A stretch of DNA of 64,000 nt from NCBI GenBank assembly GCA_947650365.1, contig OX393551.1:95454697-95518696 (forward strand), read 5' to 3'. Below, piece after piece: positions 1 to 57,578 of this stretch. Every line of letters starts with the position of its first letter. Position 1 is the stretch's first letter. The translations under genes were made by a program, and so were the position numbers. The notes beneath the pieces were generated by a model, which did not search any database, had not been told where the DNA came from, and worked only from the letters and a program-made list of their open reading frames with translations. This stretch comes from Chamaelirium japonicum. Lineage: Eukaryota > Streptophyta > Magnoliopsida > Liliales > Melanthiaceae.

Positions 1-3000
1 CGCAAGAAAACAGAAACAGAAACGAAGACAGAAGTGGAGTTTTGGAATTTAAATTCCTTCTTACTTCACACATATACCTGTAGCCAATTAACTAGAGCAG
101 GACTTTTTCACTCTTCTCTCTTCGTTTATCTCTCCATTCTCTTTTCTCTTCTTCTCTTACTTCTGTCTACTTTTCTTTATCCGTTTATTTACAGAAGAAG
201 GGGACTTTAACGAAGACAGAAGAGAGATAAGAAGCGAGAATAGAATAGAGAGATAAATAAAGAGAAAATAAAGAACTTCACACCTATACTAGTGGCCAAT
301 GGAATGGAGCAGGACTTCTTCTCTCTTTGTTTATCTCTCCATTTTCTTCTCTCTTTTTCTTTCTCTTTTGTCTTTGTTTCTCTATCCATTAATATAGAGA
401 AGAAGTGGAGTTTAATGAAGACAAAAGAGATATAAGAAGCGAGAAGCAAACAGAGAGATAAATGAAGAGAGAAGAGAGAAGATGTCCTACTCCAGTACAT
501 TAGCCACCGGTATAAATATGGATTAAGAAGGAATATAAATACCAAAACTCCACTTCTATCTTCATTTCTCTTACTATTTTCTTGCGACTGGTCAGCTAGG
601 CTCGATATATTCGTAGTGATAATATGCTGTGAGGTGGGAGAAAGAGAGAGCCGTCAAATGTGCCCCACCCTAAAGGTGTCGTATATTATTTATAGAAAAA
701 GCTTACTTAGGGCCTAAGCAATCTATGAGAAACCCTAATCCATAGACAAAGAGAAAAAAGAACGAAGGGATTTAATTATATTATTGAGAAGTGGAGTTTT
801 GGAATTTCGAATCTTTCTTAATTCACACCTATACCTGTGGAAAATGGACTGGAACAGGACTTCTTCTCTCTTCTCTCTTTGTTATTTGTCTCTCTGTTCT
901 CTTCTCTCTTCTCACAATACATTATCAACATGAACATGTCGAACCTAACCGACCAGTCATAAGAAAACAGAGAGAGAAAAGATGAAAGAAGAGAAAGAAG
1001 ATAACAGAGAGATAAACAAAGAGAGAAGATATAAGAAGTCCTGCTCCAGTCCATTGGCTACGCGTATAGCTGTAAAGTAATAAAGAATCTAAATTTCAAA
1101 ACTCCATATAAGAGAAATAAGAAGAGAGAATAGAATGGAGAGATAAATAAAGAGAGAAGAAGTCCTACTCTAGTCCATTGGCCACGGGTATAGGTGTGAC
1201 ATAAGAAGGAATATAAATTCCTAAACTCCACTTTTGTCTTTGTTTCTCTCTCCGTTTTCTTGTGACTGGTTGGCTGGGCTCGATATGTTCATACTGATAA
1301 CTTATTATAAGATGGGAAAAAGAGAGAGCCGTCAAACGTGCCCCACCCTAAAAGGGTCATATATTATTTATAAGGTAAGATTACTTGGAGCAATCTATAG
1401 GAAATCCTAATCCATGGGAGAGATTCGACGGTGGCCCTAATTAAGCTTACCCTACAAATAATATATGACCTCTTTAGGGAGAGGCACATTTGATGGCTCT
1501 CTCTTTCTCATATCTCATAACACATTATCAGCACAAAAATATCGAGCCCAACCGACCAGTTACAAGAAAATGGAGAGAGAAATGAAGATAGAAATGGAGT
1601 TTTGGAATTTAGATTCCTTCTTACTTCATACCTATACCCATGGCCAATGGACTGGAGTAGGACTTCTTTTATATTCTAACTTCATTTATCTCTCCGTTCT
1701 CTCCTCTTTTCTTCTCTCTTCTTTGGAGTTTCAGAATTTAGATTCATTCTTACTTCACACCTATACCCATAGCTAATGGACTGGAGTAGGACTTCTTCTC
1801 TCTTCTCTCTTCGTTTATCTTTCCGTTCTCTTATCTCTTCTTCTCTCACTTCTGTCATTGTTTCTCTCTTCGTTTTCTTATGACTGGTCGGCTGGGCTTG
1901 ACATGTTTGTGCTAATAATATGTTACGACAAGTGAGAAGAGAACAAAGAGATAAATGAAGAGAGAAGAGAGAAGAAGTCCTGCTTCAGTCTATTCGCCAC
2001 AGGTATAGGTGTGAAGTAAGAAGAAATCTAAATTCCAAAACTCCACTTCTCAATAATATAATTAAATCTCTCCTTTCTCTTCTTTCTTCTCCCATGGATT
2101 AGGGTTTCTCATAGATTGCTTAGGCCCTAAGTAAGCTTACCCTATAAATAATATACGACCCCTTTAGGGTAGGGCAAGTTTGATGACTCTCTCTTTATCC
2201 CATCTCATAATATGTTATCAGCACGAACATATCGAGCCCAACCGACCAGTCACAAGAAAATGAAGAGAGAAATGAATACAAAAGAGAGAGAAGAAGAAAG
2301 AAAATAACGGAGAAATAAACAAAGATAGAAGAGACAAGAAGTCCTGCTCCAGTCCATTGGCCACGGGTATAGATTTGAAGTAAGAATGAATCTAAATTCA
2401 AAAACACCACTTCTTAATATTTAAATGACCCCTTTATGGTGGGGCACGTTTGACGGCTCTCTTTCTCCCATCTCATAACACGTTATCTATATGAACATAT
2501 CGAGCCCAGCGGACTAGTCACAAGAAAAAGGAGAGAGAAACGAAGATAGAAGAGAGAGAAGAAAAGAGAAGAGAACAGAGAGATAAATGAAGAGAGAAGA
2601 AGTTCTGCTCCAGTACATTAGCCATGGGTATAGGTTTGAAGTAAGAAGGAATCTGAATTCCAAAACTCCACTCCTTAATAATATAATTAAAAATCTTCGT
2701 TCTCTTTTCTCTTCTCCTATGGATTAGGATTTCCCATACATTGCTTAGGCTCTAAGTAAGCATACCCTATAAATAATACATGACCCCTTTAGGGTAGGGC
2801 ATATTTGACGGCTCTATCTCTTTCTCCCAAATCACAATACGTTATCAGCACAAACATGTCAAGCCCAGCCGACCAGTCGCAAGAAAATGGAGAGAAAAAT
2901 GAAGACAGGAGAGAAAGAAGAAGAGAGAAGAGAACGGAGAGATAAATGAAGAGAGAAGAAGTAATGCTCCAGTCCATTGGCCACGGGTATAGGTGTAAAG

Positions 3001-4014
3001 TAAGGTAGAATCCAAATTCCAAAACTCCACTTCTGTCTTTGTTTCTCTCTCTGTTTTCTTGCAACTGGTCGACTGGGCTCGATATGTTCGTGCTGATAAC
3101 ATATCTGGTTTAATTAAGAAGGAATCTAAATTCCAAAACTTTACTTCTCAATAATATAATTAAATTTCTCTGTTCTCTTCTCTCTTTTCCCATGGATTAG
3201 GGTTTCCCATAGAATTCTTAGGCCCTAAGTAAGCTTACCCTATAAATAATATTCGACCCCTTTAGGGTAGGGCACGTTTGATAGCTCTCTTTTTCTCCCA
3301 CCTCATACTACTTACCCTATAAATAATATACGACTCCTTTAGGGTAGGGCATATTTGACGGCTCTCTCTTTCTCCCATCTTATAACACGTTATCTTTTGT
3401 TTCTCTCCCCGTTTTCTTTATTTCTCTCTCTTTCTCTTATAATATAAAATAAAATAAATAAGTATTGATAGAAAAGAGATAGACAATCATATTAAACTAG
3501 AAAGAGCAGGACTTTTTCTTTCTTCTCTCTTCTCTCTTCGTTTATCTCTTTACTCTCTTCTTTCTTTCTCCCATCTCTTAGCATGTTATCAGCATGAACA
3601 TATCGAGCCTAGCCGACCAATCGTAAGAAAATAGAGAGAGAATAAAATATAGAAGTAGAGGTTTTGAATTTAAATTTTTTCTTACTTCATACTTATACCC
3701 ATGGCTAATGGACTAGAGCGGGACTTCTTCTCTCTTCTATCTTCATTTATCTCTCCGTTATCTTCTATATTCGTCTCTCTCTTCTGTCTTCGTTTCTCTT
3801 TCCATTTTTTTGCGACTGGTCGGCTGGGCTCTATATGTTCGTGCTTATAACGTATGTAAGATGGGAGAAAAATAGGGCCGTCAAGCGTGCCCCACCCTAA
3901 AAGTGTCGTATATTATTTATAAGGTAAGCTTACTTAGGGCCTAAGCAATCTACGACAAACCCTAATCCATGGGAGAGGTTCGACTATGGACAGCCATCCG
4001 ATCGAATGATCTTA

Positions 4015-4335
4015 CAACAATTGTAATATTTTATATTTTTTTAAAGAAAAATGTAAAATATTTTTAAAGTAAAAAATTCGAGTGTGCTTCATCTTCTTTC
4101 TTTACTTCCTATTATTTAATTAATTTGATTATTTAATAAATTAAATAGTTAAATAATTAAATAATTAATTAAATATTTAATTATCTTCTCTCTTCTCACT
4201 TTATTTTATTACTATGATAATTAAGTGGAGTGTTGCTACTATAATTTTTTAATTAAATTAATCATTTAATTAAAATAAAGAGAGAAGAGAATTTACTATT
4301 ATAATCATAGTAACGTTGAGATGATACTATTGAGA
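4015..4335 (+). repeat. AT-rich tail block (short form)
   Basis: AT-rich tail following a minus-type leader and the GCCATCCGATCGAA segment. It ends in the boundary motif GTTGAGATGATACTATTGAG. Its inverted partner is at about 53260-53600. Only TA-rich low-complexity sequence lies inside. Confidence 0.7.
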
Positions 4336-4434
4336 AGTGAAGTTTTAGAATTTAGATTCCTTTTTACTTCGCACCTATACCCATGGTGAATGGACTGGAG
4401 TAAGACTTCTTCTCTCTTCTCTCTTATTTATCTT

Positions 4435-4575
4435 CGTTTAAATTATTTAATAATTTAAAAAATTTATAAATTAAGTTTTTAGTAGAATAATTAATTTAAA
4501 TAAACAAATTTTTTACATGAAAAATATTTAATATTTTTTTTTAAAAAAAATTAAAACATTACAACTGTTATGAGA
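4435..4575 (-). repeat. AT-rich tail block
   Basis: TA-rich segment leading, in the opposite orientation to the block at 4015, into the GATCGTTCAATCGGATGG segment and a plus-type leader near 4600-4680. Nothing gene-like is present. Confidence 0.6.
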
Positions 4576-6503
4576 TCGTTCAATCGGATGGCTACCTACC
4601 ATCGGATCTCTCCCGTAGATTAGGGTTTCCCATACATTGCTTAGGCCCTAAGTAAGCTTACCCTATAAATAATATACGACCCTTTAAGGGTGGGGCACAT
4701 TTGACGGCTCTCTCTTTCTCCCATCTCACAACACATTATTATCATGAATATATCGAGCCCCATGGAATCTAATTAAATAAATATTTAATTAATTATATAA
4801 CTTCTTCTCTCTTCAATATGTTCGTACTGATAACGTGTTTTGAGATGGGAGAAAAGAGCCGTCAAACGTGCCCTATCCTAAAGGGGTCGTATATTCTTCA
4901 AAGAAGAGAGAAGAGAACGAAGAGATAAACAAAGAGAGAAGAGAGAAGAACTCCTACTCTAGTCCATTCACCACGGGTATATTTATGAAGTAAGAAAGAA
5001 ACTAAATTCCAAAACTCCACTTCTTAATATTTATACGACCCATCAGATCTCTACCATCTTATTATTTATTATACTTATTTAATCTCACAACACGTTATCA
5101 GCACGAACATATCGAGCCCAGCTGACCAGTCACAAGAAAATAGAGAAAGAAACAAAGACAGAAGAAAGAAAAGAAGAGAGAAGATAACGGAGAGATAAAC
5201 GAAGAGAAAAGAAAGAAGAAGTCATGCTCCAGTCCATTATCCACGGGTATATATATGAAGTAAGAAAGAATATAAATTCCAAAACTCCACTTCTGTCTTT
5301 ATTTCTCTCTCCATTTTCTTAGGACTGGTCGGCTCAGCTCGACATGTTTATGCTGATAACAAGTTGCGAGATGGGAGAAAGGAAGAGCTATCAAATATGC
5401 CTACCCTAAATGAGTCGTATAAATATTAAGAAGTGAAGTTTTGGAATTTACATTCCTTTTTACTTTACACCTATACCCGTGGCCAATGGACTGGAGAGGT
5501 CACAGGTATATTATTTATTAGATAAGATTACTTAGGGCCTAAGCAATCTATGATAAATCCTAATCCATGGGAGATTACTTAGGGCCTAAGCAGGACTTCT
5601 TCTTACTTCTCTCCTTGTTTATCTCTTTGTTCTTTTCTCTCTTTCGCCCATCTCACAACACGTTATCAGTACGAACATATCGAGCCCAGCCGACCAGTCG
5701 CAAGAAAACGAAGAGAGAAGAGAAGATAAAAGAGAGAGAAGAAGAGAGAAGAGAATGGAAAGATTTAATTATATTATTGAGAACTGGAGTTTTGGAATTT
5801 AGATTCCTTTTTACTTCACACCTATACCCGTGGCGAATGGACTGGAGCAGGACTTCTTCTCTCTTCTCTCTTCATTTATCTCTCTGTTCTCTTCTCTCTT
5901 CTTCTCTCTCTTCTGTTTTCGTTTCTCTCTTCGTTTTTTTATGATTGAACAGCTGGGCTCGACATGTTCGTGCTGAATGGGAGAGATTATTTAACTAATA
6001 TTATTTTTAGTCCTACTCCTTATTTAATCTCTCTTCTTCTCTCTCTTCTGTGGAGATTTAGAATTTAGATTCCTTCTTACTTCACACTTATACCCGTGGC
6101 CAATGGACTGGAGCAGGACTTCTTCTCTTTTCTCTCTTCATTTATCTCTTCGTTATCTTCTCTCTTCTTCTCTCTCTTCTTTGGAGTTTTGGAATTTAGA
6201 TTCCTTCTTACTTCACACCAATACCCATGGCCAATGAACTAGAGTAGGACTTCTTTTCTCTTCCCTCTTTATTTATCTCTCTGTTCTTTTCTCTCTTCTT
6301 CTCTCTCTCTTCCATCTTCATTTCTTTCTCTATTTTCTTGCGACTGGTCGGCTGGGCTTGATATGTTCATACTGATAACGTGTTGTGAAATGGGTGAAAG
6401 AAAGAGCCGTCAAACGTGCTCCACCCTAAAGGGATAATTTATTATTTATAGGGTAAGCTTACTTAAGGCCTAAGTAATCTATGGGAATCCCTAATCTATA
6501 GGA

Positions 6504-7819
6504 GAGATCCGACGGTGGACAGTCATTATTCTTACTTCATACCTATACCCATGGTGAATGGACTGGAGCTGGACTTATTCTCTCTTCTATGTTCTTCTCT
6601 TTCTAATTATCGGATAACTGTCTACAATCGGATCTTTCCCATGGATTAGGGTTTCGCATAGATTGCTTAGGCCCTAAGTAAGAAGAAGTCATGCTCTAGT
6701 CCATTGGCCACGGGTATAGGTATGAAGTAAGAAGGAATCTAAATTCAAAAACTCCACTTCTCAATAGTATCTTCTCAACGTTATTATGATTATCATATTA
6801 ATGATACTATAAATTTTTAAATTAAATTAAAATTTTATTTAATTATTAATTAATTTAAATAATTTAATAATTAAGTTTTTATTAAAATAATTAATTTATT
6901 TAATTATCTAATTATTTAATTAAATTTATTATTTTATTTATTATTATTATTTTATTATTAAATAATTAAATTAGATAACTATTTAATTATTTAAATAATT
7001 AAATAAAGAAAAAATGATTTAATTATATAATTAATTTATTAATTTATTTTATTAGTTATTTCTTTAATTATTATCTTATTTTTAAATAATTAAATAATTA
7101 GTTAATTATTTAAACGAAGTAAGAGAACGTAGAGATAAATAATAGTGCCCCACCCTAAAGAATATTTATAAAAACATTGATTATTTCAAGTTTATAATTA
7201 AAAAAGAGAGAGCCGTCAAACGTGCCTCACCCTAAAGGGGTCCTATATTATTTATTGAGAAGTTGAGTTTTGTAATTTAGACTCCTTCTTACTTCACACT
7301 ACTTCACACCTATGCCCGTGGCTAATGGATTGGAGCAGAACTTCTTCTCTCTTCTCTTTTTGTTTTTCTATCTGTTTTCTAGTGTCTAGTCAGCTAGCCT
7401 CAACATATTCGTGCTGATAACGTGTTGTGAGATGGGAGCAAGACTTCTTCTTTCTCCTCTCTTCATTTATCTCTCTATTCTCTTCTCTCTTCTTCTCTCT
7501 ATTCTGAGGAGTTTTAGAATTTAGATTCCTTCTTACTTCACACCTATACCCATAACTAATGAACTGAAGCAGGACTTCTTCTTTCTTCATTTATCTCTTC
7601 GTTTTCTTATCTCTTCTTCTCGCTCTTCTGTCTTCGTTTCTCTCTCCGTTTTCTTGCGACTGGTCAATTGGGCTCGATATGTTCATGCTGATAACGTATT
7701 ATGATGTGGGAGAAAGAGAGAGCCATCAAACGTGCCCCACTCTAAAACGATAATATATTATTTAGAGGGTAAGCTTACTTAGGGCCTAAACAATCTATGG
7801 GAAAATCTAATCCATGTGA
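6504..7819 (+). repeat. Tandem duplication in left arm, copy 1
   Basis: A stretch starting GAGATCC at 6504, with a core fragment and TCTAATTATCGGAT and followed by an AT-rich block (about 6768-7140), recurs starting GAGATCC at 7820, an offset of 1316 bp. The AT-rich parts (6780-7080 and 7980-8270) align over most of their length. The right inverted arm has only one copy of this arrangement. Confidence 0.65.
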
Positions 7820-8865
7820 GAGATCCAACGGTGGATAGCCATCTTTCTTACTTCACACCTATACCCGTGGTGAATGGACTAGCATAGGACGTCTTCTCTC
7901 TTCTCTCTTCTTCTCTCTCTAATTATCAGATCGCTATCCACCGTCGAATCTCTCCCATTAATTAAGGCTGACCAGTCATCTTTACGTTTTTATGATTATC
8001 AAAGTAATGTTACTATATTTTTTTAATTAAATTAATTATTTATTTAATTTTTAATATTTAAATTAATTTAATAATTTAAATAATTAAGTTTTTAGTAAAA
8101 TAATAAATTTATTTAATTATTAAATTATCTAGTTATTAAATTAAATTTATTATATTATTTATTTATTATTATTATATTATTAAATAATTCAATTAGGTAA
8201 CTATTTAATTGTTTTAATTATTAAATAAAAAAATAATGATTTAATTATATAATTAATTTATTAATTAATTTTATTAATTATTATTTATTTTTAATTATTT
8301 AAATAATAAGTTAATTATTTAAATATTTAAATATTTATTTAGTGAAGAAATATATTAAATAGATTATTTAGTTATTGAATAACTAATTTGTTAATAAATT
8401 GAATAAATATTTAAATAAATAAGTAATTAAAGAAATAATGATTATTATAGTAATGTTACTATAATTTAATAAAATTAAACTATAATAATTTAATAAATAG
8501 GGTTTCTATAATATTTCTTCGTATATGATTTAAATTAATCATCTATTTAATATTAAATAAATTATTTATTTTACTAAACTTAATAATTAAATTATTTAAT
8601 TATTTAATAAAAAATTAAATAAATAATTTAATTAAAAAAATTATAGTAACATTACTATGATAATCATAATAACGTTGAGATGATACTTTTTTAATTAAAT
8701 TATAAATGAAGAGAGAAGATAGGAGAAGTCATGCTCCAGTCTATTTATAGGATAAGCTTACTAATTGAGAGAATTAATTATATAATTTTATTTAGAAAAT
8801 ATTAATTAAAATAAATAAAATAACTAAAATAAATATGTAACCTCCTATCTCACAATACGTTATCA
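7820..8865 (+). repeat. Tandem duplication in left arm, copy 2, with long AT-rich tail
   Basis: Second copy of the 1.3-kb segment. Its AT-rich tail spans about 7978-8840 and contains a distinctive stretch near 8470-8540 (TTTCTATAATATTTCTTCGT). The reverse complement of that stretch is at about 50105-50160 in the right arm. Homology to the right arm ends near 8640. Confidence 0.65.
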
Positions 8866-11261
8866 GTACGAACTTGTCGAGCCCAGCCAACTAGTCACAA
8901 GAAAAAGAAGAGAGAAACATAGACAGAAGAGATAAAAGAAGAGAGAATAGAACGGAGAGATAAACGAAGAGAGAAGAAAGAAGAAGATCTGCTCCAGTCC
9001 ATTGGCCACGGGTATAGGTGTGAAGTAAGAAGGAATCTAAATTCCAAAACTCCACTTCTTAATAGTATCATCTCAACGTTATTATGATTATCATATTAAA
9101 TTCTCTTCTCTCTTTGTTTTAATATAATGATTAATTTAATTAAAAAAATTATAGTAGCATTATTATGATATATGATTATTTAACTAATTATAACATTGAG
9201 GTGAACGAACAGAAATGGAAGAAAAAAGACCTATATTTAATTGATTACAGGTAGGAGAGATTTAAATATGGATTAGGTATGAACGTTATTTATAAGAGAG
9301 ATTTAAATTTCGATTAATTGATTACAGGACTTCTTCTCTCTTCTCTCTTCTCTCTTCGACATGTTCGTGCTGATGACGTATTATAAGATAATTTAACATT
9401 TAACAATTCTCTTTATGTTTATATCTCCGTTCTTTTCTCGCTTCCTCCCACCTCACAACACGTTATTAGCACGAATATGTCGAGCCCAACCTACCAGTCA
9501 CAAGAAAACAGAAAGAGAAACGAAGACAAAGGGAGAGAAGAAGAGAGAAGAGAACGGAGAGATAAACGAAGACAGAAAAGAGAGAAGAAGATAGAAAAGA
9601 ACAGAGAGATAAACAAAGATAGAAGAGAGAAGAAGTCTTACACCAGTCCATTCGCCACAAGTATAGGTATGAAGTAAGAAAGATGGCTATCCACCGTCGA
9701 ATCTCTCTTATGGATTAGGGTTTTCTATAGATTGCTTAGGCCCTAAGTAATCTTACCCTATAAATAATATATGACTCCTTTAGTGTGGGGCATGTTTGAT
9801 AGCCCTCTCGTTCTCCCATCTCATAATACGTTATCAGCACGAACATGTTGAGCCGAGTCGACTAGTCAAAAGAAAACAGGGAAAGAAACAAAGACAGAAG
9901 TAGAGTTTTGGAATTTATATTCTTTCTTACTTCACACCTAAACTTATGGAGAATGGACTCGAACAGGACTTCTTCTCTCTTCTATCTTCGATTATCTCTC
10001 CGTTCTCTTCTCTCTTCTTTTCTCTCTTCTACCTTCGTTTCTCTCTCTGTTTTCTTGTAACTGGTCGGCTGGGCTCGACATGTTCATGCTGATAATGTAT
10101 TGTGAGAAGAGAGAAGAAGAGAGAAGTAAGAAGGAATCTAAATTCCAAAACTCCACTCCTCAGTATTTATATGTCCCCTTTATAGTGGCACACGTTTGAC
10201 GGCTCACTCTTTCTCACATCTCACAACACGTTTTCAGTACTAACATATCAAGCCTAGCCAACTAGTCACAAGAAAACAGAGAGAGAAATGAAGACAGAAG
10301 TGGAATTTTGGAATTTAAATTCCTTCTTACTTCACACCTATACTTCATACGGATATAGGTATGAAGTAAGAAGGAATCTAAATTCCAAAACTCCACAGAA
10401 GAGAGAGAAGAAGAGAGAAGAGAGAATGGAGAGAAACAAAGACAGAAAAGAGAAAAGAAAAAAGAAAAGAACCAAGAGATAAACGAAGATAGAAGAGAGA
10501 AGAAGTCCTATTCTATTCCATTGGCCACGGGTATAGGTATGAAGTAAAAAGGAATCTAAATTCCAAAAGTCCATTTATGTCTTCATTTCTCTCTCTGTTT
10601 TCTTACGACTGGTCAGTTGGGCTCGACATATTCGTGTTGTTAACGTGTTATGAGATGAAAAAAAAAAGAGAAGAGAACGAAGACATAAATATGCCAAGCT
10701 TAAATTAAATGAAATTTATTAAACACGTTATTAATAATTTAATTTAATAAATAATATAAGAGATTTTTAAATAATTTGAATTTATTTCAAAAAGTAATCA
10801 ACTAGTTATTTAATTATTTTTTTAGAATTAATAATATAAAGTAAACTAATTAAATAAATATTGAGAGAGAAGAGAGAAGAAGTCCTGCTCCAGTCTATTC
10901 GCCACGGGTGTAGGCATGAAGTAAGAAGGAGTCTAAATTCCAAACCTCCACAGAAGAGAGAGAAGAAGAGAGAAGAGACTAGAGAGATAAATAAAGAGAA
11001 AATAGAGAAGAAGTCTTGCTATAGTCAATTGGCCACATGTATAGGTATGAAGTAGGAAGGAATCCAAATTCCAAAAGTCCACAGAAGAGAAAGAAGAAGA
11101 AAAAAAAAAACAAAGAGAGAAATGAAGACAGAAGAGAGAGAAGAAGAGAGAAGAGAATGGACAAATAAATGAAGAGAGAAGAAGTCATGCTCTTGTCCAT
11201 TGGTCACGGGTATAGGTGTGAAGTAAGAAGGAATCTAAATTCCAAAACTTCACTTCGCAAT
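8641..11261. repeat. Array segment between the left arm and the first X block
   Basis: Mixed plus- and minus-type units. It includes a boundary-motif AT segment at about 9063-9205, a stretch at 9215-9330 in which AATTGATTACAGG and AGAGATTTAAAT each occur twice, and an AT-rich tail at about 10690-10862. Several core-only units occur between 10380 and 11090. No gene is seen. Confidence 0.7.
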
Positions 11262-26278: not shown

Positions 26279-26280
26279 AC

Positions 26281-34643: not shown

Positions 34644-34644
34644 C

Positions 34645-39078: not shown

Positions 39079-39830
39079 CAATATTTATTTGACCCATTTA
39101 GGGTAGGGCATGTTTGATGGCCCTTTCTTTCTTTCATCTCATAATACGTTATTAGCACGAACATATCGAGCCCAACTGACCAGTCACAAGAAAACGGAGA
39201 GAGAAACGAAGACAGAAAAGAGAGAAGAAGAGAGAAAAGAACGAAGAGATAAACAAGAGAGAAGAAGTCATGTTCCAGTCCATTAGCCACGGGTATAGAT
39301 GTGAAGTAAGAAGGAATCTAAATTCCAAAACTCTATTGAAGAGAGAGAAGAAGAGAGAAGAGAACGGAGAGATAAATAAAGAAAGAAGAGAAAAGAAGTC
39401 ATGCTCTATTTCATTATCCACTGTCGGATTTCTTCCATGGATTAGGATTTTCCATAGATTGCTTAGGCCCTAAGTAAGCTTACCCTATAAATAATATACG
39501 ACCCCTTTAGGTTGTGGCACATTTGATGGCTCTCTCTTTCTCCCATCTTACAATACATAATCAGAATGAATAGATCGAGCACAACCGTTAAATAATTCAT
39601 TTATCTCTCTATTCTCTTCTCTCTTCTTCTCTCTTCTTACAATACGTTATCAACACGAACATGTCTAGCCCAGCCGACCAGTCACAAGAAAACATAGAGA
39701 TAAACGAAGACAGAAGAGAGAGAAAAAGAGAGAAGATAACACAGAGAAATGAAGAGAGAAGAGAGAAGAAGTCATGTTTGAGTCCATTCGCCACGGGCTT
39801 AGGTATGAAGTAAAACTCCACTTTTGTCTA
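39079..39830 (+). repeat. Z block, copy 3 (partial)
   Basis: Recognised by the joint TTAAATAATTCATTTATCTC at 39588, preceded by a leader as in copies 1 and 2. The GATAATGTG joint of the other Z copies is absent. Confidence 0.6.
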
Positions 39831-44810: not shown

Positions 44811-45339
44811 AGAAATAGAGTTTTGGAATATAGATTCCGTCTTACTTCACACCTATACCTGTGGCGAATAGACTGGAGCATAACTTCTTCTCTTTTCTCT
44901 ATTTGTTTATCTCTCCATTGATCTCTTATATCTTCTTCTCTCTTCTCATAACATGTTATCAGCTTGAACATGTTGAGCCCAGCCGACCAGTTACAAGAAA
45001 ACGAAGAGTGAAACAACGATAGAAGTAGAGTTTCAAAATTTAGATTCCTTCTTACTTCACACCTATACCCGTGGCCAATGGACTGGAGTAGGACTTCTTC
45101 TCTCTTATTTCTTCGTTTATCTCATCATTTTATTCTCTCTTCTTCTCTCTCTTCTGTCTTCATTTCTTTCTCCGTTTTCTTGTGACTTTTCGGCTGGGCA
45201 CGATATGTTCGTGTTGATAACGTATTGTGAGATGGGAGAATGAGAGAGCCATCAAATGTGTCCCACCCTAAAGGGGTTGTATATTATTTATAGGGTAAGC
45301 TTACTTAGGGCCTAAGCAATCTATAGGAAACCCTAATCC
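44811..45339 (-). repeat. Array segment between the duplication copies
   Basis: Minus-type core, a plus-type head fragment near 44950, an inverted joint near 45025, and a minus-type core-head-leader. No gene. Confidence 0.6.
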
Positions 45340-46670
45340 ATCGGAGAAGAGAGATAAGAATGGAGAGTATTAATAATATTAATAAGAAGTGGAGTTTAGG
45401 AATTTAGATTCTTTCTTACTTCACACCTATACCCGTGGTGAATAGACTAGAGCAGGACTTCTTCTCTCTTCACTCTTCATTTATCTCTCTGTTTTGTTCT
45501 CTCTTCTTCTCTTTCTTCTGCGGTGTTTTAGAATTTAGATTCCTTCTTACCTCACAAGTTTACCCAATAAATAATATACGATCCCTTTAGGGTGGGGCAC
45601 GTTTGACGGCTCTCTCTTTCTATCATACGTTATCAATACGAACATGTCGAGCCCAAGAAAATAGAGAGAGAAACGAAGACAGAAGAGAAAGAAGAAAAAA
45701 GAAGAGAATAAAGAGATAATAGAAAAAAGAAAAAAGAAGAAGTCCTGCTTTAGTCCATTAGCCACTGGTATAGATGTGAAGTAAGAAGGAATCTAAATTT
45801 CAAAACTCCAAAGAGAAGATAGAAAGAGAGAGAAGAGAACGGAAAGATAAATGAAGAGAGAAGAGAGAAGAAGTCATGCTCCAGTCCAATCGCCACGGGT
45901 ATAGGTGTGATGTAAGAAGGAATATAAATTCCAAAACTCCACTTCTGCTTCGTTTCTCTCTCCGTTTTCTTACGACTAGTCGACTGGGCACAACATGTTT
46001 GTGCTGATAACGTGTTGTGAGATAGGAGAAAGAGAGAGCCATCAAACGTGCCCTATAATAAAGGGGTCATATAAATATTGAGAAGTGAAGTTTTGAAATT
46101 TAGATTCCTTCTTACTTCACACCTATACCCGTGGTCAATGGACTGGAGCAATACTTCTTTTCTCTTCTCTCTTTATTTATCTCTTCGTTCTCTTCTTTCT
46201 TCTTCTTTCTCTTCTATCTTCGTTTCTTTGTCCTTTTTCTTGTGATTGGTCAGCTGGGCTCGACATGTTCATGCTAATAACGTGTTGTGAGATGGGAGAA
46301 AGAGAAAGCTGTCAAATATGCCCCACCCTAAAGGGGTCGTATAAATATTGAGAAGTAAAGTTTTAGAATTTAGATTCCTTCTTACTTTGCACCTATACCC
46401 GTGGCCAATGGACTGGAGCATGACTTCTTCTCTCTTCTCTCTTCGTTTATTTCTCCGTTATCTTCTCTCTCTTCTGTTTTTGTTTCTCTCTTTATTTTCT
46501 TGTGACTGATCGGCTGGGCTCGATATGTTCGTACTGATAACGTATTGTGAGATAGGAAAAAGAGAAAGCTTTCAAATATGCCCTACTCTAAAGGGGTGGT
46601 ATATTATTTATAGGGTAAGCTTGCTTAGGGCCTAAGCAATCTATAGGAAACCTAATCCATTGGAGAAGAG
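45340..46670 (-). repeat. Second direct duplication, copy 2
   Basis: Counterpart of 42600-43920. It is followed by more minus-type units and not by the long AT-rich tail that follows copy 1. Confidence 0.65.
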
Positions 46671-49243
46671 AAAAGAGAACAGAGAGATTTAATTATATTA
46701 TTGAGAAGTGGAGTTTTGGAATTTAGAATCTTTCTTACTTCACGCCTATACCCACGGCCAATGGACTTGAGCAGGACTTTTTCTCTCTTCTCTCTTTGTT
46801 TCTTTCTCCGTTTTCTTATAATTGGTAGGCTGGGCTCGATATGTTCGTCCTGATAATATGTTGTGAGATGGGAGAAAGAGAGAGCCGTTAAACTTGCCCC
46901 ACCCTTATTAGATTCCTTCTTACTTCACACTTATACCCGTGGCCAATGGACTAGAGCAAGACTTCTTCTCTCTTCGTTTATCTCTCTGTTCTCTTTTCTC
47001 TTCTGTATTTGTTTCTCTTTCTAATTTCTTGTGACTGGTCGGCTGGGCTCAATATATTCGTGTTGATAACATGTTGTGAGATGGGAGAAAGAAAGAGCCG
47101 TCAAATATGCCCCACCCTAAAGGTGTCGTATAAATATTAATAAGAGGAGTTTTGGAATTTAGATTCCTTATTACTTCACACCTATACCTATGGCAAATGG
47201 ATTAGAGGAGGACTTCTTCTCTCTTTGTTTACTCTCTATTCCCTTTTCCCTTCTTTTCTCTCTTCTATCATTGTTTCTCTTTCCGTTTTCTTGTGACTGG
47301 TTGGTTGGGCTCGATATGTTCGTGCTGATAACGTGTTGTATGATGGGAAAAAGAGAGAGACGTCAAACGTACCCCACCCTAAATGGGTCATATATTATTT
47401 ATAGGGTGAGCTTACTTAGGGCCTATGCAATCTATGGGAAACCCTAATCCATGGGAGGGATCTGACGGTGGCCAGCCATTCGATCGAATAATTTCATAAC
47501 ATCTGTAATATTTTATAATTAAATATTTAAATAATAATATTAAAATAATACTATTTAAATATTTAAAGGAACTATATACTTTATAATATTTAAAAAAATA
47601 TTACCTAAAATAAATAAAAATAATAAGCAATCTTCTATCTCACAACACGTTATCAGCATGAACATATCAAGCCCGGCCAACCAGTTACTAGAAAACAGAG
47701 AGAAAAACGAAGACAGAAGAGAGAGAAGAAGAAAGAAGAGAACAGAGAGATAAACGAAGAGAGAAGAGAGAAGAAGTCTTGCTCCATTCTTGCTCCAGTC
47801 CAATCGTAAGAAAATGAAGAGAGAAACGAAGATAGAAGTGGAGTTTTGAAATTTAGATTCCTTCTTACTTCACACCTATACTCGTGGCAAATGGACTAGA
47901 ACAGGACTTCTTCTCTAAGAAATCTATTGGTATAGGTGTGAAGTAAGAAGGAATCTAAATTCCAAAACTCCAATTCTCAATAATATAATTAAATCTCTCC
48001 GTTCTCTTCTCTCTTCTCCTATGGATTAGGGTTTCCCATAGATTTCTTAGAGAAGAAGTCCTGCTCTAGTCCATTTGCCACGAGTATAGGTGCGAAGTAA
48101 GAAAGAATCTAAATTCCAAAACTCTACTTCTATCTTCGTTTCTTTCTTTATTTTCTTACGACTGGTCGGCTGGGCTCGACATGTTCATGCTGATAACGTG
48201 CCATGAGATAGGAGAAAGAGAGAGCTATCAAACTTGCCCCACCCTACTTAGGGTCGTATAAATATTGAGAATTGAAGTTTCGGAATTTAGATTCCTTGTT
48301 ACTTCATACCTATATCCGTGGCCAATGGACAGGAGCATGACTTCTTCTCTCTTCTTTTATTTCCCCGTTCTCTTCTTTCTTCTTCTCTCTCTTCTGTCTT
48401 CGTTTCTCTCTCCGTTTTATTATTTATATATTCAAATAATTAACTAATTATTTAAACAATAAGTAAAAAGTTATTAGATTATTGTTTTATTTTATTACTT
48501 AATTAAATAATTAAAATTTTTATTTATTTTAATTAATATTTAATAATTTAATAAAATAATTTTTTAATTATTTAATTAAATAATAATTTATTGAAATAAA
48601 TAATATACGACCCCTTTAGGTGGGGCACATTTGATGGCTCTCTCTTTTCTTTCATCTCATAATATGTTATCTACATAAACATCTCGAGCCCAGCCGACCA
48701 GTCGCAAGAAAACAGATAAAGAAATGAAGCTTGAAGAGAGAGAAGAAGAAAGAAAAGAACGGAGAGATAAACAAAAAAAGAAGAGAGAAGAAGTCCTGAT
48801 TCAGTCCATTGGCCACGTGTATAGGTGTGAAGTAAGAAGGAATTTAAATTCCAAAACTCTACTTTTGTATTCGTTTCTCTCTCTGTTTTCTTACGACTGG
48901 TCGACTGGGCTCGATATGTTCCTGCTGCTAATGTATTGTGAGATAGGAAAAAGAGAGAGTCATCTAACATGCCCCACCCTAAAGGGGTCGTATATTATTT
49001 ATAAGATAAGCTTACTTAGGGCCTAAGCAATCTATACGAAACCCTAATCCATAGGAGAGATCAATAAGAGAACAGAGAGATTTAATTATATAATTGAGAA
49101 ATGGAGTTTTGGAATTTAGATTCCTTTTTACTTAACACCTATACCCATAGCGAATGGACTGGAACATGACTTCTCTTTTCTCTCTTCGTTTATCTTTCCA
49201 TTCTCTTTTCTTTTCTTCTCTCTTCTTACAACACGTTATCAGC
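46671..49243 (-). repeat. Mainly minus-type array up to the gypsy fragment
   Basis: Several consecutive minus-type units, with AT-rich tails at about 47500-47630 and 48415-48605. The array breaks off in a head motif at ACGTTATCAGCA (about 49239), where the gag fragment begins. Confidence 0.65.
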
Positions 49244-49939
49244 AAGGTTCATAGAGTTAAAGAGTCGGATCAAAGCCGGGGCTTAAATTGAAATCCGGTT
49301 CCAATCCCACCTCAAAACCAGAACCAATCCTTACCTTATAATCAAAACGGATACCAACCAAAAAAGCAAAATCGAGCTGACTATTTTGATTCACCCCCTG
49401 AGTCTGAAGCTGAGTTGGATGAGTCTGACATAAACTTTGAACGGGAGAACATTCAGTTCGATCATCCCCGAAACCCTATAGAGCGACATGCGCATAATCA
49501 GCACAGCATGGAAGAACGCCTTGAACGAGCCCTTGAGAGATCACAAAGTTATGGAGTACGAGTTAACATCGATGACTTTTAGGGAAGCCATGATGCTGAT
49601 GCATTGCTTGACATGATAGAAAGCATCCAGCACTTTTTTGAATGGAAAGATCTCCCTGACGATAGAAAAGTCAAACTCGTGGCAACTAAACTAAAAGGAG
49701 CCGCTTTGGTTTAGTGGAGAGAGTTGCAAGCGAATCGCCTCAGGAAAGGGAAACAAAAGGTCGCAACGTGGACCAAGATACGTGACAAGATGCAACTGAA
49801 GTACATTCCTCCTGACTATCGTACCTCTCTGTACCAGAGGTTGCTTAGCCTGAAACAAGGCAATAGAAGTGTACAGGAGTATACTAAAGAGTTTGACATC
49901 TTGACCATTCAAAACGCCATCCTGGAAGACAAAAAATAA
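49244..49939 (+). pseudogene. Ty3/gypsy gag fragment
   Basis: A decayed part of a gypsy-type gag (retrotransposon gag/capsid domain). In one frame it reads through NQNGYQPKKQ, an acidic linker (SPPESEAELDESD), a basic stretch with ERLERALERS, and the capsid-like part DADALLDMIESIQHFFEW ... KVKLVATKLKGAALV*WREL ... WTKIRDKMQLKYIPPDY ... YQRLLSLKQGNRSVQEY. Three in-frame stops lie at 49289-49291, 49580-49582 and 49712-49714; the last replaces one Trp of the usual WW pair. Protease, RT and LTRs are absent. The fragment ends against AT-rich DNA at 49980. Confidence 0.85.
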
Positions 49940-49979
49940 ATAGAAGTGTACAGGAGTATACTGAAGAGTTTGACATCTT
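49862..49979 (+). repeat. 41-bp direct duplication at the gag fragment end
   Basis: The 41 bp at 49862-49902 (AATAGAAGTGTACAGG...) recur at 49939-49979 with one mismatch, separated by 36 bp. The second copy ends exactly where the AT-rich arm sequence begins. Confidence 0.85.
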
Positions 49980-52900
49980 AAATTATTTATTTATTTATTA
50001 ATTTATTAAATAATTTTAATAATTAAATAATTTAATTATTAAGTTTTTAGTAAAATAAATAATTTATTTAATATTAAAAAGATAATTAATTTAAATCAAA
50101 TACGAAGAAATATTATAGAAACCATATTTATTAAATTATCATAGTTTAATTTTTTTAAATTATAGTAACATTACTATGATAATCATTTTTTCTTTAATTA
50201 CTTATTTATTTAAATATTTATTCAATTTATTAATAAATTAGTTATTTAATAAATAAATAATATATTTAATATATTTCTCCACTAAATAAATTTTTAAATA
50301 TTTAAATAATTAACTTATTATTTAATTAATTAAAATTAATTAATAATTAATAAAATAAATTAATAAATTAATTATATAATTAAATTATTATTTTTTTATT
50401 TAATAATTTAAATAATTAAATAATTACCTAATTGAATTATTTAATAATATAATCATAATAAATAAATAATATAATAAATTTAATTTAATAACTAGATAAT
50501 TTAATAATTAAATAAATTAAATATTTTACTAAAAACTTAATTATTTAAATTATTAAATTAATTTAAATATTTAAAAATTAAATAAATAATTAATTTAATT
50601 AAAAAAAATATAGTAACATTACTATAATAATCATAATAACGTAGAGATGACTGGTCAGCCTTAATTATTTATAGGGTAAGCTTACTTAGGGCCTAAGCAA
50701 TCTATGGGAAACCCTAATCAATGGGAGAGATTCGACGGTGGATAGCGATCCGATAATTAGAGAGAAAAGAAGAGGTAAGAAAGAAGACGTCCTACTCTAG
50801 TCCATTCACCACGGGTATAGGTGTGAAGTAAGAAAGATGGTTGTCCACCATCGGATCTCTGCCAGGGATTAGGGTTTCCCATAGATTATTTAGGCCCTAA
50901 GTAAGCTTACCCTATAAATAATATATTATCATTTTAGAGTGGGGCACGTTTGACAGCTCTCTCTTTTTCCTACATCATAACACGTTATCAGCATGAACAT
51001 GTCGAGCCCATCTGACCAGTCGCAAGAAAACGGAGAGAGAAACGAAGACAGAAGAGCAAGAAGAAGAGATAAGAGAACAGAAAGATAAATGAAGAGAGAA
51101 GAGAGAAGAAGTCCTACTTTAGTTCATTAGCTACGGGTATCGGTATGAAGTAAGAAGGAATCTAAATTCTAAAACACCTTAGAAGAGAGAGAAGAAGAAA
51201 GAAGAGAACAGAGAGATAAATGAAGAGAGGAGAAAGAAGAAGTCCTGCTCCAGTCTATAGGTGTGAAGTAAGAGAGAGAGAGAAGAAGAGATAAAAGAAT
51301 AGAGAGATAAATAAAGAGGAAAGAGAAAAGAATAGAGAGATAAATAAAGAGGAAAGAGAAAAGAAGTCCTACTCTAGTTCATTAGCCATGGGTATTGGTG
51401 TGAAGTAAGAAGGAATCTAAATTCCAAAACTCCACAGAAGAGAGAGAAGAAGAGAGAAGATAACGAAGTGATAAATGAAGAGAGAAAAGAGAAGAAGTCC
51501 TGCTCCAGTCCATTGGCCACGGGTATAAGTGTGAAGTAAGAAGGAAGCTAAATTCCAAATCTCCACAGAAGAGAGACAAAAAAAGAGATTAAATATGGAG
51601 CAGGACTAAAAATAATATTAGTTAAATAATCTCTCCCATTCAGCGAACATGTCGAGCCCAGCCGATCAATCAAAAGAAAACGGATAGAGAAACAAAGACA
51701 GAAGAGAGAGAAGAAGAGAGAAGAGAACAGAGAGACAAATGAAGAGAGAAGAGAGAAGAAGTCCTGCTCCAGTCCATTCACCACGGGTATAGGTGTGAAG
51801 TAAGAAGGAATCTAAATTCCAAAACTCCAGTTCTTAATAATATATTTAAATGTTTCCATTCTCTTCTCTCTTCTTCTCTCTTTTTTATCTTCTCTTCTCT
51901 CTTTGTTTTCTTGCGACTGGTCAACTGGGCTCTATATGTTCGTACTGATAACGTGTTGTGAGATAGGAGAAAGAGAGAAAAGAACAAAGAGATAAATAAG
52001 GAGAGAAGTGAGAAGAAGTCCTGCTTAGGCCATAGATTGCTTAGGCCCTAAGTAATCTTACCCAATAAATAATATACTAGTGGCCTCTCCAGTCCATTGG
52101 CCATTGGTATAGGTATGAAGTAAAAAGGAATATAAATTCCAAAACTCCACTTCTTAATATTTATACGACTCCTTTAGGGTGGGTGTATTTGATAGCTCTC
52201 CCTTTCTCCCATCTCGCAACATGTTATCAGCACGAAAATGTCGAGCCGAGCTGACCAATCATAAGAAAATAGAGAGAAATAAAGACAGAAGTGGAGTTTT
52301 GGAATTTATATTCTTTCTTACTTCATATATATACCCAGGGATAATGAACTGTAGCAAGACTTATTCTCTCTTTTCTCTTCGTTTATCTCTCCGTTCTCTT
52401 CTCTCTTCTTTTCTTTCTTCTATCTTTGTTTCTTTCTTTGTTTTCTTGTGACTGGTCAGCTGGGCTCGATATGTTTGTGCTGATAACGTATTGTGAGATT
52501 AAATAAGTATAATAAATAAAGAAATAGTAGAGATCTGATGGGTCCTATAAATATTAAGAAGTGGAGTTTTGGAATTTAGTTTTCTTCTTACTTTATAACT
52601 ATACCCTTGGCGAATGGACTGGAGTAGGAGTTCTTCTCTATTCTCTCTTCGTTTATCTCTCTGTTCTTTTCTCTCTACTTTGAAGAATATATGACCCCTT
52701 TAGGGTAGGGCACGTTTGACGGCTCTTTTCTCCCATCTCAAAACACGTTATCAGTACGAACATGTCGAAGAGAGAAGAAGTTCTATAATCAATTAAATAT
52801 TTATTTAATTAGATTCCATGGGGCTCGATATATTCGTGCTAATAATGTATTATGAGATAGGAGAAAGGGAGAGCCGTCAAATAGGCCCCACCCTTAAAGG

Positions 52901-53009
52901 CTTGTATATTATTTATAGGGTAAGCTTACTTAGGGCCTAAGCAATCTATGGGAAACCCTAATCCACGGGAGAGATCCAATGGTAGGCAGCCATCTGATCG
53001 AACGATCTC

Positions 53010-53155
53010 ATAACAGTTGTAATGTTTTAAATTTTTTTTTAAAAAATATATTAATTATTTTTCAAGCAAAAAATTTGTTTATTTAAATTAATTATTTTAC
53101 TAAAAACTTAATTAATAAATTTTTTAAATTATTAAATAATTTAAAAAAAGATAAA
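53010..53155 (-). repeat. AT-rich tail block in right arm
   Basis: Partner of the block at 4435-4575, following the CATCTGATCGAACGATCTCA segment. Low-complexity TA-rich sequence only. Confidence 0.6.
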
Positions 53156-53255
53156 TAAGAGAGAAGAGAAAAGAAGTCTTGCTCCAGTCCATTCACCACA
53201 GGTATAGGTGCGAAGTAAAAAGGAATCTAAATTCTAAAACTTCACTTCTCAATAG

Positions 53256-53600
53256 TATCATCTCAACGTTACTATGATTATCATAGTAAATTCTCTTCTA
53301 TCTTCGTTTTAATTAAACGATTAATTTAATTAAAAAAATTATAGTAGCAACACTCCACTTAATTATCATAGTAATAAAATAAAGTGAGAAGAGAAAAGAT
53401 AATTAAATATTTATTTGATTATTTAATTATTTAACTATTTAATTTATTAAATAATAAGAAGTAAAGAAAGAAGATGAAGTACACTCAAATTTTTTGTTTT
53501 AAAAATAATTTATATTTTTCTGTAAAAAAATATAAAACATTATAACTATTGTGAGATCATTCGATTGGATGGATGTCCACAGTCGAACCTCTCCCATGGA
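53256..53600 (+). repeat. AT-rich tail block with boundary motif, right arm
   Basis: Begins with AATAGTATCATCTCAACG and ends in the segment leading to ATTAGGGTTTCTCGTAG. It is the inverted partner of 3985-4335, sharing the variant GGTTCGAC in place of GATCCGAC. Confidence 0.7.
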
Positions 53601-56600
53601 TTAGGGTTTCTCGTAGATTGCTTAGGCCTTAAGTAAGCTTACCCTATAAATAATATACGACACCTTTAGGGTGGGGCACGCTTGACGGCCCTATTTTTCT
53701 CCCATCTTAGAATACGTTATCAGCACAAATATATCGAGCCCAGCTGACCAGTCGCAAAAAAACAAAGAGAGAAACGAAGACAGAAGAGAGAGAAGAAGAA
53801 AGAAGATAACGGAGAGATAAACAAAGATAGAAAAGAGAAGAAGAAGTCCCGCTCCAGTCCATTAGCCATGGGTATAAGTATGAAGTAAGAAAAAATCTAA
53901 AATTGAAAACTCTACTTCTATCTTCGTTTCTCTCTCTGTTTTCTTACGATTGGTCGGCTAGGCTCGATATGTTCGTGCTGATAACATGTTAAGAGATGGG
54001 AGAAAGAAAGAAGAGAATGAAGAGATAAACGAAGAGAAAAGAGAGAAGAAATCATGCTCTCTCTAGATTAAAATAATTTTCTATCTCTTGTCTATCAATA
54101 CTTATTTATTTTACTTTATACTATAAGAGAAAGAGAGAGAAATAAAGAAAACAGGGAGCGAAACTGGGAGAGAAACAAAAGATAATGTGTTATAAGATGG
54201 GCGAAAGAGAGAGCCGTCAAATATACACTACCCTAAAGGGGTCGTATATTATTTATAGGGTAAGTAGTGTGAGATGGGAGAAAGAGAGAGTCGTCAAACA
54301 TGCCCTACCCTAAAGGGATCAAATATTATTTATAGGGCAAGCTTACTGAGGGCCTAAGAATTCTATAGGAAACCCTAATCCATGGGAAAAGAGAGAAGAG
54401 AACAGAGAAATTTAATTATATTATTGAGAAGTAAAGTTTTGGAATTTAGATTCCTTCTTAATTAAACTAGATATGTTAACAGCACGAACATATCGAGCCC
54501 AGCCGACCAGTTGCAAGAAAACAGAGAGAGAAACAAAGACAGAAGTGGAGTTTTGGAATTTGGATTCTATCTTACTTTACACCTATACCCGTGGCCAATG
54601 GACTGGAGCATGACTTCTTCTCTCTTCATTTATCTCTCCGTTCTCTTCTCTCTTCTTCTCTCTCTCCTGTCTTCGTTTTTCTCTTCATTTTCTTACGACT
54701 AGTCGGCTGGACTTGACATGTTTGTGCTGATAACGTAGTGTGATTTGGGAGAAAAAGATAGAGCCATTAAATATGCCTTACCCTAAAGGGGTCATGTATT
54801 ATTTATAGGGTACGCTTACTTAGAGCCTAAGCAATCTACGGGAAATCCATATCCATAGGAGAAGAGAGAAAAGAACGGAGATATTTAATTATATTATTGA
54901 GAAGTGAAGTTTTGGAATTCAGATTCCTTCTTACTTCAAACCTATACCCATGGCCAAGGTACTGGAGTAGAACTTCTTCTCTCTTCGTTTATCTCTCTGT
55001 TCACATCTCTTTTCTTCTCTCTCTTCTATCTTCGTTTCTCTCCGTTTTCTTGTGACTAGTCCGCTGGGCTCGATATGTTCATGTAGATAACGTGTTGTGA
55101 GATGGGAGAAAGAGAGAGCCGTCAAACGTGCCCCACCATAAAGGGGTCATATAAATATTAAGAAGTGGTGTTTTGGAATTTAGATTCATTCTTACTTCAA
55201 ATCTATACCCGTGGCCAATGGATTGGAGCAGGACTTGTTTTCTTTCCTATCTTCGTTTATATCTCCGTTATTTTCTTTCTTCTGCTCTCTCTTCTGTCTT
55301 CGTTTCTCTCTCTGTTTTCTTATGATTGGTCGGTTGGGCTCGATATGTTCGTGCTGATAACGTATTATGAGATGAGATAAAGAGAGAGTGGTCAAACTTA
55401 CCCTACCCTAAAGGGGTCGTATATTATTTATAGGGTAAGCTTACTTAGGGCCTAAGCAATCTATGAGAAACCCTAATCCATGGGAGAAGAAAGAAGAGAA
55501 ATGAGAGATTTAATTATATTATTGAGAAGTGGAGTTTTGGAATTTAGATTTCTTCTTACTTCACACCTATACCGGTGGTGAATGGACTGAAGCAGGACTT
55601 CTTCTCTCTTCTCTCTTCATTTATCTCTTTGTTCTCTTCTCATTTGTCATAACATATTAGCAGCACGAACATGTCGAACCTAGACGACCAGTCATAAGAA
55701 AATGGAGAGAGAAACAAAGAAAGAAGTAAGAGAAGAAGAGATAAGAGAACGGAAAGATAAACGAAAAGAGAAGAGAGAAGAAGTCCTGCTCCAGTCCATT
55801 GGCCACGGGTATAGGTATGAAGTAAGAATGAATCTAAATTCTGAAACTCCATTAAAGAGAGAGAAAAAGAGAGAAGAGAACAGAGAGATAAATAAAGTTA
55901 GAAGAGAAAAAAAGTCCTACTCCTGTCCATTGGCCATGGGTATAGGTATGAAGTAAGAAGGAATCTAAATTCCAAAACTCTATTTCTATCTTTGTTTCTC
56001 TTTCTATTTTCTTGTGACTAGTCGGTTGGGCTCGATATTTTTGTACTGATAATGTGTTATAAGATAGGAGAAAGAAAGAGCCATCAAACGTGCCCCTCCC
56101 TAAAGGGGTCGTATATTATTTGTAAGGTAAGCTTAATTAGGGCCACCATCGAATCTCTCCCATGGATTAGGATTTCCCATAGATTACTTAGGCCCTAAGT
56201 AATCTTACCTTATAAATAATATATGACCCTTTTAGGGTAGGGCACGTTTGATGGCTCTCTCTTTCTCCCATCTCATAACAAGTTATCAGTACGAACATGT
56301 CAAGCCCAGCCGACCAGTCACAAGAAAATAGAGAGAGAAATGAAGACAGAAGTGGAGTTTAGGAATTTATATTCCTTCTTATGTCACACCTATACCCGTG
56401 GCCAATGGACTAGAGTAGGACTTCTTCTCTCTTCATTTATCCCTGTATTCTCTTCTCTCTTCTTATCTCTCTTATGTGGAGTTTTGGAATTTAGATTCCT
56501 TCTTACTTTACAGCTATACGCGTGGCCAATGGACTGGAGCAGGACTTCTTCTATCTTCTCTCTTTGTTTATCTCTCTGTTATCTTCTCTCTCTTCTATCA

Positions 56601-57578
56601 TCTTTTCTCTTTCTGTTTTCTTGTGACTGGTCGGTTAGGTTCGACATGTTCATATTGATAATGTGTTGTGAGAAGAGAGAAGAGAAGGAGAGACAAACGA
56701 AGAGAGAAGAGAGAAGAAGTCATGTTCCAGTCCATTCACCACAGGTATAGGTGTGAATTAAGAAAGATTCTAAATTCCAAAACTCCACTTCTCAATAATA
56801 TAATTAAATCTCTTCATTCTTTTTTCTCTTCGTCTATGGATTAGGGTTTCCTATAGATTGCTTAGGCCCTAAGTAAGCTTTTTCTATAAATAATATACGA
56901 CACCTTTAGGGTGGGGCATGTTTGATGGCTCTCTCTTTCTCCCATCTCACAGCATGTTATCAGTACGAATATGTCGAGCCTAGCCGACCAGTGGCAAGAA
57001 AATAGTAAGAGAAATAAAGATAGAAGTGGAGTTTTGGTATTCATATTCCTTCTTACTTCACACTTATGCCCGTGGCCAATGTACTGGAGCAGGATATCTT
57101 CTCTCTTCTCTCTTCATTTATCTCTTTGTTTGCTTCTCGCTTCTTATCTCTCTTTTGTCTTCGTTAAACTCCACTTCTTCTCTATATAAATGGATAGAGA
57201 AACGAAGACAAAAGAGAAAGAAAAAGAGAGAAGAAAATGGAGAGATAAATGAAGAGAGAAGAAGTCCTGCTCCAGTCCATTGGCCACGGGTATAGGTGTG
57301 AAGTTCTCTATTTTCTCTTTATTTATCTCTCTATTATCTTCTCGCTTCTTATCTCTCTTCTGTCTTCATTAAACTCCTCTTCTTCTCTCAATAAACGGAT
57401 AAAGAAACGTAGACAAAAGTAAGAGAAGAAGAGAAAAAAGAACGGAGAGATAAACGAAGAGAGAAGAGTGAAAAAGTCCTGCTCTAGTCTATTGGCCACA
57501 GGTATAGGTGTGAAGTAAGAAGGAATTTAAATTCCAAAACTCCACTTCTGTCTTTGTTTCTCTTTCTATTTTCTTGCG

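Follow-up and report, generated by a model that had tools for sequence, protein, structure and literature searches.

Two arms of about 8 kb face each other in opposite orientation in the stretch of DNA analysed here, and the question they raise is whether they record a local duplication or belong to something larger. The stretch (the window) comprises 64,000 nucleotides of contig C3 (C3:95454697-95518696) in an assembly of 1.52 Gb and 3,253 contigs. Coordinates are window positions, and those that are negative or above 64000 refer to flanking C3 sequence, of which 100 kb was added on each side. We denote the left arm, on the 1..8640 side, as L, and the right, inverted arm, from 49981 onwards, as R. 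The window was found to lie wholly inside the left arm of a ~165-kb palindrome on C3, and the L/R pair is the inner, older layer of this giant palindrome. We propose, at a probability of roughly two in three, that a single fold-back duplication of satellite-type DNA was followed by rapid dispersal and then by tandem amplification on two contigs.

The inverted pair itself is real. A sequence-only reading of the window had claimed two ~8-kb arms, inverted around a 41-kb spacer, and both self-BLAST and pairwise alignment agree with it. Thus, self-comparison returned a continuous antidiagonal, as opposed to unit-level matches only; it runs unbroken through 1-6302 / 57578-51315 (6,330 columns, 91.9% identity) and resumes beyond a 1.05-kb indel at 7262-8632 / 51435-49985. 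Global alignment of 1-8640 with the reverse complement of 49981-57578 gave 93.0% over 7,501 columns, with 91.0–95.4% in 500-bp bins that hold more than 300 aligned columns; the outlying bins are those at the indel (84.8%, 105 columns) and across the arm end (77.3%). The next strongest self-match in the window, after that of the arms, is direct and spans 3.85 kb at 80.8%. An identity of 88% or more over at least 250 bp is attained by just four self-matches: the L/R arms, the long terminal repeat (LTR) pair of a copia-type element, a direct match of 321 columns (60992/62192) and one that links two inserted elements. The remaining array repeats match at ~66–90%, against 93.0% for the arms, and the earlier view that the arms are younger than the unit-to-unit divergence holds. 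The private variant (~3872/53675) and the one-off junctions on which that reading had relied were likewise located in the sequence. The arms differ by 522 mismatches: 152 are private to L, 146 are private to R, in 20 both arms depart from the unit consensus, and the other 204 are unpolarised. Among the 298 private changes, 186 are C>T or G>A.

As had also been anticipated, the true arms are longer than the window shows. L (+ strand, 1..8640 in the window) runs on leftward to -8881 (C3:95445816), with no break there. R (− strand, 49981..64000 in the window) pairs left of the window in its 57579-64000 part and reaches 66590, which is the fold-back centre. With the flanks, each arm measures ~17 kb, the two are 91–92% identical, and -8881 pairs with 66590. 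Between the inner ends, at ~8640 in L and ~49981 in R, the spacer (8641..49980) is composed of unit arrays and later insertions.

The larger and younger inverted duplication is invisible from the window alone, as its centre is just outside. Its left arm (-19306..66591) takes in the whole window, 1..64000, and its right arm (66730..144739) aligns to the left one as six collinear pieces at 97.2–98.3%. The giant arms, 78–86 kb long and ~98% identical, meet 2.6 kb past the window end. Thus, the giant palindrome displays the two adjoining inverted copies by which a fold-back is recognized. A second mark of a fold-back, an unduplicated loop between the copies, is seen at this centre (centre A) and at a further junction, B, in the copy read on contig C2. 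At centre A, ~124 bp separate the giant arms, of which 115 bp are the outward continuation of R (-9297..-9411, 94.8%); this filler is reached after a gap of ~415 bp, giving an original loop of ~516 bp. Short inverted homology at the turn, also typical of fold-backs, appears as ATTGTT at centre A and as a switch between units in register at B. By eye, TATTGTT occurs both on the outward strand and on the return strand of L, and the junction retains 6 bp of it, ATTGTT.

The giant palindrome also clarifies the indel between L and R. The ~1.05 kb found only in L (6342..7430) is absent from the window's R, while 1,179 bp occupy this place in the R copy of the other giant arm (81894-83074). Judged from these sequences, the gap in the window's R is therefore probably a deletion.

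A relative of this region on contig C7 (L030) is unfolded and runs straight through R's turning point. Its positions 380-8703 are collinear with -13423..-5086 at 91.4–91.5%, and the R arms start at its positions 4921 and 4905. R stops at the turn, whereas L and the C7 relative run on, as might be seen if a chromosome end beyond the break had been lost. The same relative shows how L and R are akin. Over 3.8 kb left of the window, identity is 92.4–92.9% between L and R, 92.5–92.7% between C7 and L and 92.1–92.6% between C7 and R, a comparison that stops before 1-8640 since the C7 copy departs at -5086. Two trees of the three sequences do not resolve them and disagree on where C7 belongs (supports 52 and 0.194). 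Because the L–R identity equals those of C7 with L and with R over the testable part, L and R appear to belong to a wider family, as two of its members set in opposite orientation. Accordingly, the common descent of the arms, as the sequence-only reading had argued, stands, but over the testable part the pair does not look like a special local event. The alternative that ~8–17 kb was copied in reverse 41 kb away, with nothing larger involved, is therefore unlikely, although the continuous antidiagonal at near-uniform identity, the one-off junctions common to both arms and the pasted look of R (below) would all agree with it: besides this kinship, the whole block sits in a 98% palindrome.

Unfolded-looking members of the family, 92–93% identical to half of the centre probe, were also seen on C5, C6, C7, C12, C14, C32, C36, C77 and other contigs. 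Several of them recur at distances of ~302–345 kb, which may point to a repeat period larger still.

The inner end of R bears on the direction of copying. An AT-rich palindromic element (7975..8690) has both of its ends in L, and its copy in R (49981-50652) is without the last ~50 bp; in other words, the R arm ends ~50 bp inside the element. Abutting this end is a retrotransposon gag fragment (49245..49980, + strand), for which one of the two pieces searched matches Pfam Retrotrans_gag. Within the fragment, just ahead of the R junction, ~41 bp are repeated at 49862 and 49939, and this repeat looks like templated repair filler. Since the inner end of R is cut in the AT-rich element and abuts the filler-bearing gag patch, while L continues on both sides, we infer that L is the original and that R was pasted in as its copy. 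A giant foldback transposon with these arms as its long terminal repeats, or a large element inserted twice, would account for long inverted arms made of subrepeats. However, the inner arm end falls inside another element, R abuts the gag patch, inspection by eye of the inner ends (8640/49981) shows no target duplication, and the outer end of R is the fold-back point. Judged from the inner ends and the outer end of R, we thus disfavour the transposon, for the position of the inner arm end, and consider it extremely improbable.

Copies of the palindrome were found across the genome, each whole-genome search having scored the best 40 of thousands of candidates. A 1,001-bp probe of centre A had at least 996 bases matched at 15 of the 40 places (seven on C2, four on C4, two on C3, and one each on C7 and C163), with 95–97% identity outside C3. 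The R inner junction was present at all 40 scored places at 97–100%, and these places make up at least 19 complete pairs plus two halves, distributed over C2, C3, C4, C7, C10 and two small contigs; the L inner boundary was present at all 40 as well, at 98–100%. Both counts are lower bounds, because every scored place matched. An intact centre A was found in 14 of the 19 pairs and not in the other five (two on C10 and one each on C4, C7 and C207), as would be expected if palindrome centres are unstable or prone to loss.

How soon did the copies disperse? The L copies on C163, C10, C4, C7, C2 and C3 are 97.7–98.4% alike and form a star-like tree with low support that gives no order of dispersal among the contigs. 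Two pairs are exceptions, namely C2–C4 (one copy each, 99.10%, support 100) and a pair on C3 (99.90%). Within one palindrome, L and its counterpart L' are 97.86% identical on C3 and 98.32% on C163, so that the likeness within a palindrome does not exceed that between contigs. Hence dispersal seems to have come soon after the fold-back, with the arms not homogenising one another. In palindromes of the sex-chromosome type, arm-to-arm gene conversion keeps the arms alike, and they are hence closer to each other than to other copies. This does not apply to the present arms, and conversion between them is unsupported by the above values. An age of ~0.8 million years would follow from 2% divergence under an assumed grass rate; we do not claim it.

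Separately, C3 carries a second copy of the left-arm region (L002, C3:96969550-96974549), 1,513,352–1,513,353 bp away and identical at 4,995 of 5,000 positions. It is either a very recent duplication or a duplicated haplotype.

With 3,253 contigs and highly repetitive sequence, viewed at the level of the assembly, it is natural to ask whether false inverted joins or duplicated haplotypes have produced the palindrome, the more so as the C3 copy 1.51 Mb off, at 99.9% over 5 kb, could be a duplicated haplotype. We regard such an artefact as very unlikely. First, the arms differ by 2% at the giant level and by 7% between L and R, with private substitutions and indels at both levels. Second, a copia-type LTR retrotransposon (19660..28507, + strand; Pfam RVT_2, rve and zf-CCHC; LTRs 98.7% identical over 686 bp; 5-bp target-site duplication ACAAC) is found in one giant arm only, and the 5-bp empty site is intact in the other, the insertion being 8,848 bp. 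Third, centre A recurs on several contigs at 95–97% outside C3. Thus, the private changes, the one-arm insertion and the recurring centre make misassembly unlikely. The copia insertion, being absent from the other giant arm, also postdates the fold-back.

On two of the contigs the palindromes are themselves repeated. At junction B, as read in one C2 copy, the arm turns back after a loop of ~6.4 kb by switching units in register. Full-length B was found at eight of the 40 scored places, split evenly between C2 and C4 (99–100%), and elsewhere it was found as single halves only. Both contigs hold tandem rows of five palindromes, with centres spaced by 148–175 kb on C2 and 137–163 kb on C4, and B occupies three of the four inter-palindrome intervals on each contig and occurs once more outside each row. 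One C2 block lies 0.39–1.26 Mb from the contig start, and the C4 block lies within 1.3 Mb of the contig end. As for the contig ends themselves, C2:1-2000 is all N, the last 2 kb of C3 contain five TTTAGGG and the last 2 kb of C4 contain no telomere repeat.

The alternating orientation in tandem on C2 and C4 is what repeated breakage-fusion cycles through sister-chromatid (U-type) fusion would build. We find this route doubtful since it does not predict the loop of single-copy sequence that remains at centre A and in the centre B read on C2 (PMC3907307), and since the centres are common to the copies found instead of being new each time. A second route, to which we attach a similarly low likelihood, is double rolling-circle or extrachromosomal amplification followed by reinsertion; it concerns how the palindrome was amplified and is compatible with a fold-back origin. 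Double rolling-circle replication would give arrays of alternating orientation. It would thus fit the alternating inverted copies, the two constant junctions and the near-simultaneous dispersal, but the palindromes are separated outside C2 and C4, and there junction B occurs only in halves among the best 40 places scored. Arrays formed by double rolling-circle replication (PMC3147054) are among the systems nearest to the present one.

Returning to the fold-back followed by dispersal, we propose the following history. First, L and R, two long members of the family, lay in opposite orientation ~41 kb apart, R presumably having been pasted. Second, the chromosome may have broken at or beyond the outer end of R. 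Third, the broken end would have folded back and been copied, which would give the structure L..R-R'..L' that the contig displays; the turn would have involved the ~516-bp loop and the shared ATTGTT, and ~415 bp of the loop would have gone missing at that time or shortly afterwards. Fourth, the palindrome presumably spread to at least five large contigs in a short time. Finally, tandem arrays would have grown on C2 and C4, the contigs on which the second fold-back-like junction, B, was found at full length; unequal exchange, rolling-circle or fusion cycles are candidate processes for these arrays.

Having set out this history, we would note several points that weigh against it. The unfolded comparison draws on one relative over 8.3 kb, and this relative has ACCGTT at the return point where L has ATTGTT, so the microhomology at the time of the fold-back may have been perhaps only 3 bp (range 3–7 bp). 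The ~516-bp loop, later shortened, is under the published range (PMC3907307). The 264 kb read around the centre contain no two-copy TTTAGGG or CCCTAAA. Arms of 78–86 kb are short for a classical broken-chromosome duplication, and a second break or limited copying must therefore be assumed. On both C2 and C4, one of the four intervals between tandem palindromes lacks junction B, and blocks on C3 (3–6 Mb), C7 (4–5 Mb), C10 (14 Mb) and a second one on C2 (11–13 Mb from the end) are not terminal. Further or more divergent copies may exist beyond the best 40 scored, and the palindrome is known here from assembled contigs.

The material that was folded back is of satellite type. Of the 64,000 bases of the window, 42,988 are matched by a profile of a 361-bp unit, in both orientations; this is a tandem unit of a few hundred base pairs, as in plant subtelomeric satellites. 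Once 44 of 324 overlapping hits had been removed, together with every join in which more than 25 bp separated the pieces, 217 unit-to-unit joins were left, of which 149 keep the orientation and 68 switch it. The switches cluster at few unit positions and, on our reading of the consensus, sit at the unit's purine/pyrimidine tracts. Also recurrent is an AT-rich element that is palindromic internally and has a conserved end, with 11 hits to its 35-bp end at up to three mismatches and none in shuffled sequence. The unit may also contain a stretch like a primer-binding site; a literature search on such a string listed no paper of use. Viral contigs searched with one exact unit pattern gave no matches, and a search for RNA genes gave none at the gathering score.

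Several smaller features of the arrays were observed. A shortened unit of 268–270 bp recurs (2157-2680, 45948-46603 and 54895-55423), and a join from unit position ~128 to 222 was seen ~25 times among the 149 same-orientation joins. Direct block duplications of ~3.7 kb, at 81–86%, occupy 11104-19658 and 28508-34848 and are an older tandem-duplication layer inside the spacer. The 5' LTR of the copia element matches its 3' LTR only to 20345, and part of 20346-22747 resembles an element at 36154-38440 (88.5%, 619 columns); the front of the copia element thus seems to have been replaced or invaded. The latter element (36154..38440, unstranded) has the form TGTTG...CAACA with a 5-bp target-site duplication GAAGT, in a stretch common to both giant arms. 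Another inserted element (34852..35727, unstranded), with inverted-repeat-like ends and 43-bp minisatellites, is also in a stretch common to both giant arms and so probably predates the fold-back.

How does this locus compare with known systems? Fold-back inverted duplications in people have spacers of 766–70,466 bp and turn at 2–8 bp of microhomology or ~300 bp of repeat homology (Hermetz et al. 2014, PMC3907307). The present palindrome is like them in its inverted copies, short unduplicated loop, homology at the turn and small insertions; unlike them, it is inherited in a plant, occurs at ~20 places on several contigs and has arms of 78–86 kb. Plant subtelomeric satellites, such as CL14 and CL34 of potato (PMC3276127) and those of maize (PMC10335936), share with our arrays the unit of a few hundred base pairs, the many copies and the position of some blocks near contig ends. 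Here, however, orientation is strongly mixed, other blocks are megabases from contig ends, and the palindromes form a second repeat level on C2 and C4, with spacing of 137–175 kb. Tumour palindromic amplicons, as described for ERBB2 (PMC5314454), are likewise founded on an inverted duplication, whereas here the centres are shared by the copies found, the genome is that of an inherited plant lineage and no selected gene is apparent in the window.

A further comparison concerns the species. Chionographis japonica, probably the same species, is holocentric, and its subtelomeric satellite CjSat5 is marked by H3K9me2 (PMC10264360). CjSat5 is a candidate match for the 361-bp unit. Its centromeric satellite has two forms, Chio1 and Chio2, of 23 and 28 bp, which differ by a 5-bp deletion and one substitution, alternate in orientation and share TTCGTACGA (PMC10264360, PMC12722358). 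In the present assembly, 20 stretches of 1 kb were sampled from four contigs, and six of them are tandem arrays of a 23-bp or 28-bp satellite, which occurs in both orientations; this fits Chio1/Chio2, with the proviso that a near relative could carry the same satellite. Among the papers listed, judged by titles and abstract openings, none announces such a palindromic array. The main text of PMC10264360 contains 'inverted' no times and 'palindrom' once, of satellite monomers, and that of PMC12722358 contains none of 'palindrom', 'inverted' and 'subtelomer'. As a separate observation, C1:105031018-105032961 holds interstitial plant telomere repeats, TTTAGGG and then CCCTAAA within 1 kb, an orientation expected either of two fused chromosome ends or of a join between telomeres in the assembly.

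What makes this locus informative is that one genome offers a large inherited palindrome together with its unfolded relative, a turning point resolved to few bases, copies on other contigs and datable layers. It also advises caution, in that what a short window shows as mirror-image repeats can turn out to form the inner layer of a structure ~10 times larger. In ordinary chromosomes, fold-back duplications lead to dicentrics and breakage. We tentatively suggest that holocentromeres might let a folded-back, doubled end survive division, so that fold-back would become an inherited and repeating way of enlarging heterochromatin, proceeding stepwise (centre A, dispersal, then B and tandem growth) and leaving a datable mirror-image layer at each step. 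The link from holocentricity to the survival of fold-back products is hypothetical. If the plant is the holocentric Chionographis japonica, whether spread-out centromeres let fold-back duplications survive and build heterochromatin would be a testable question.

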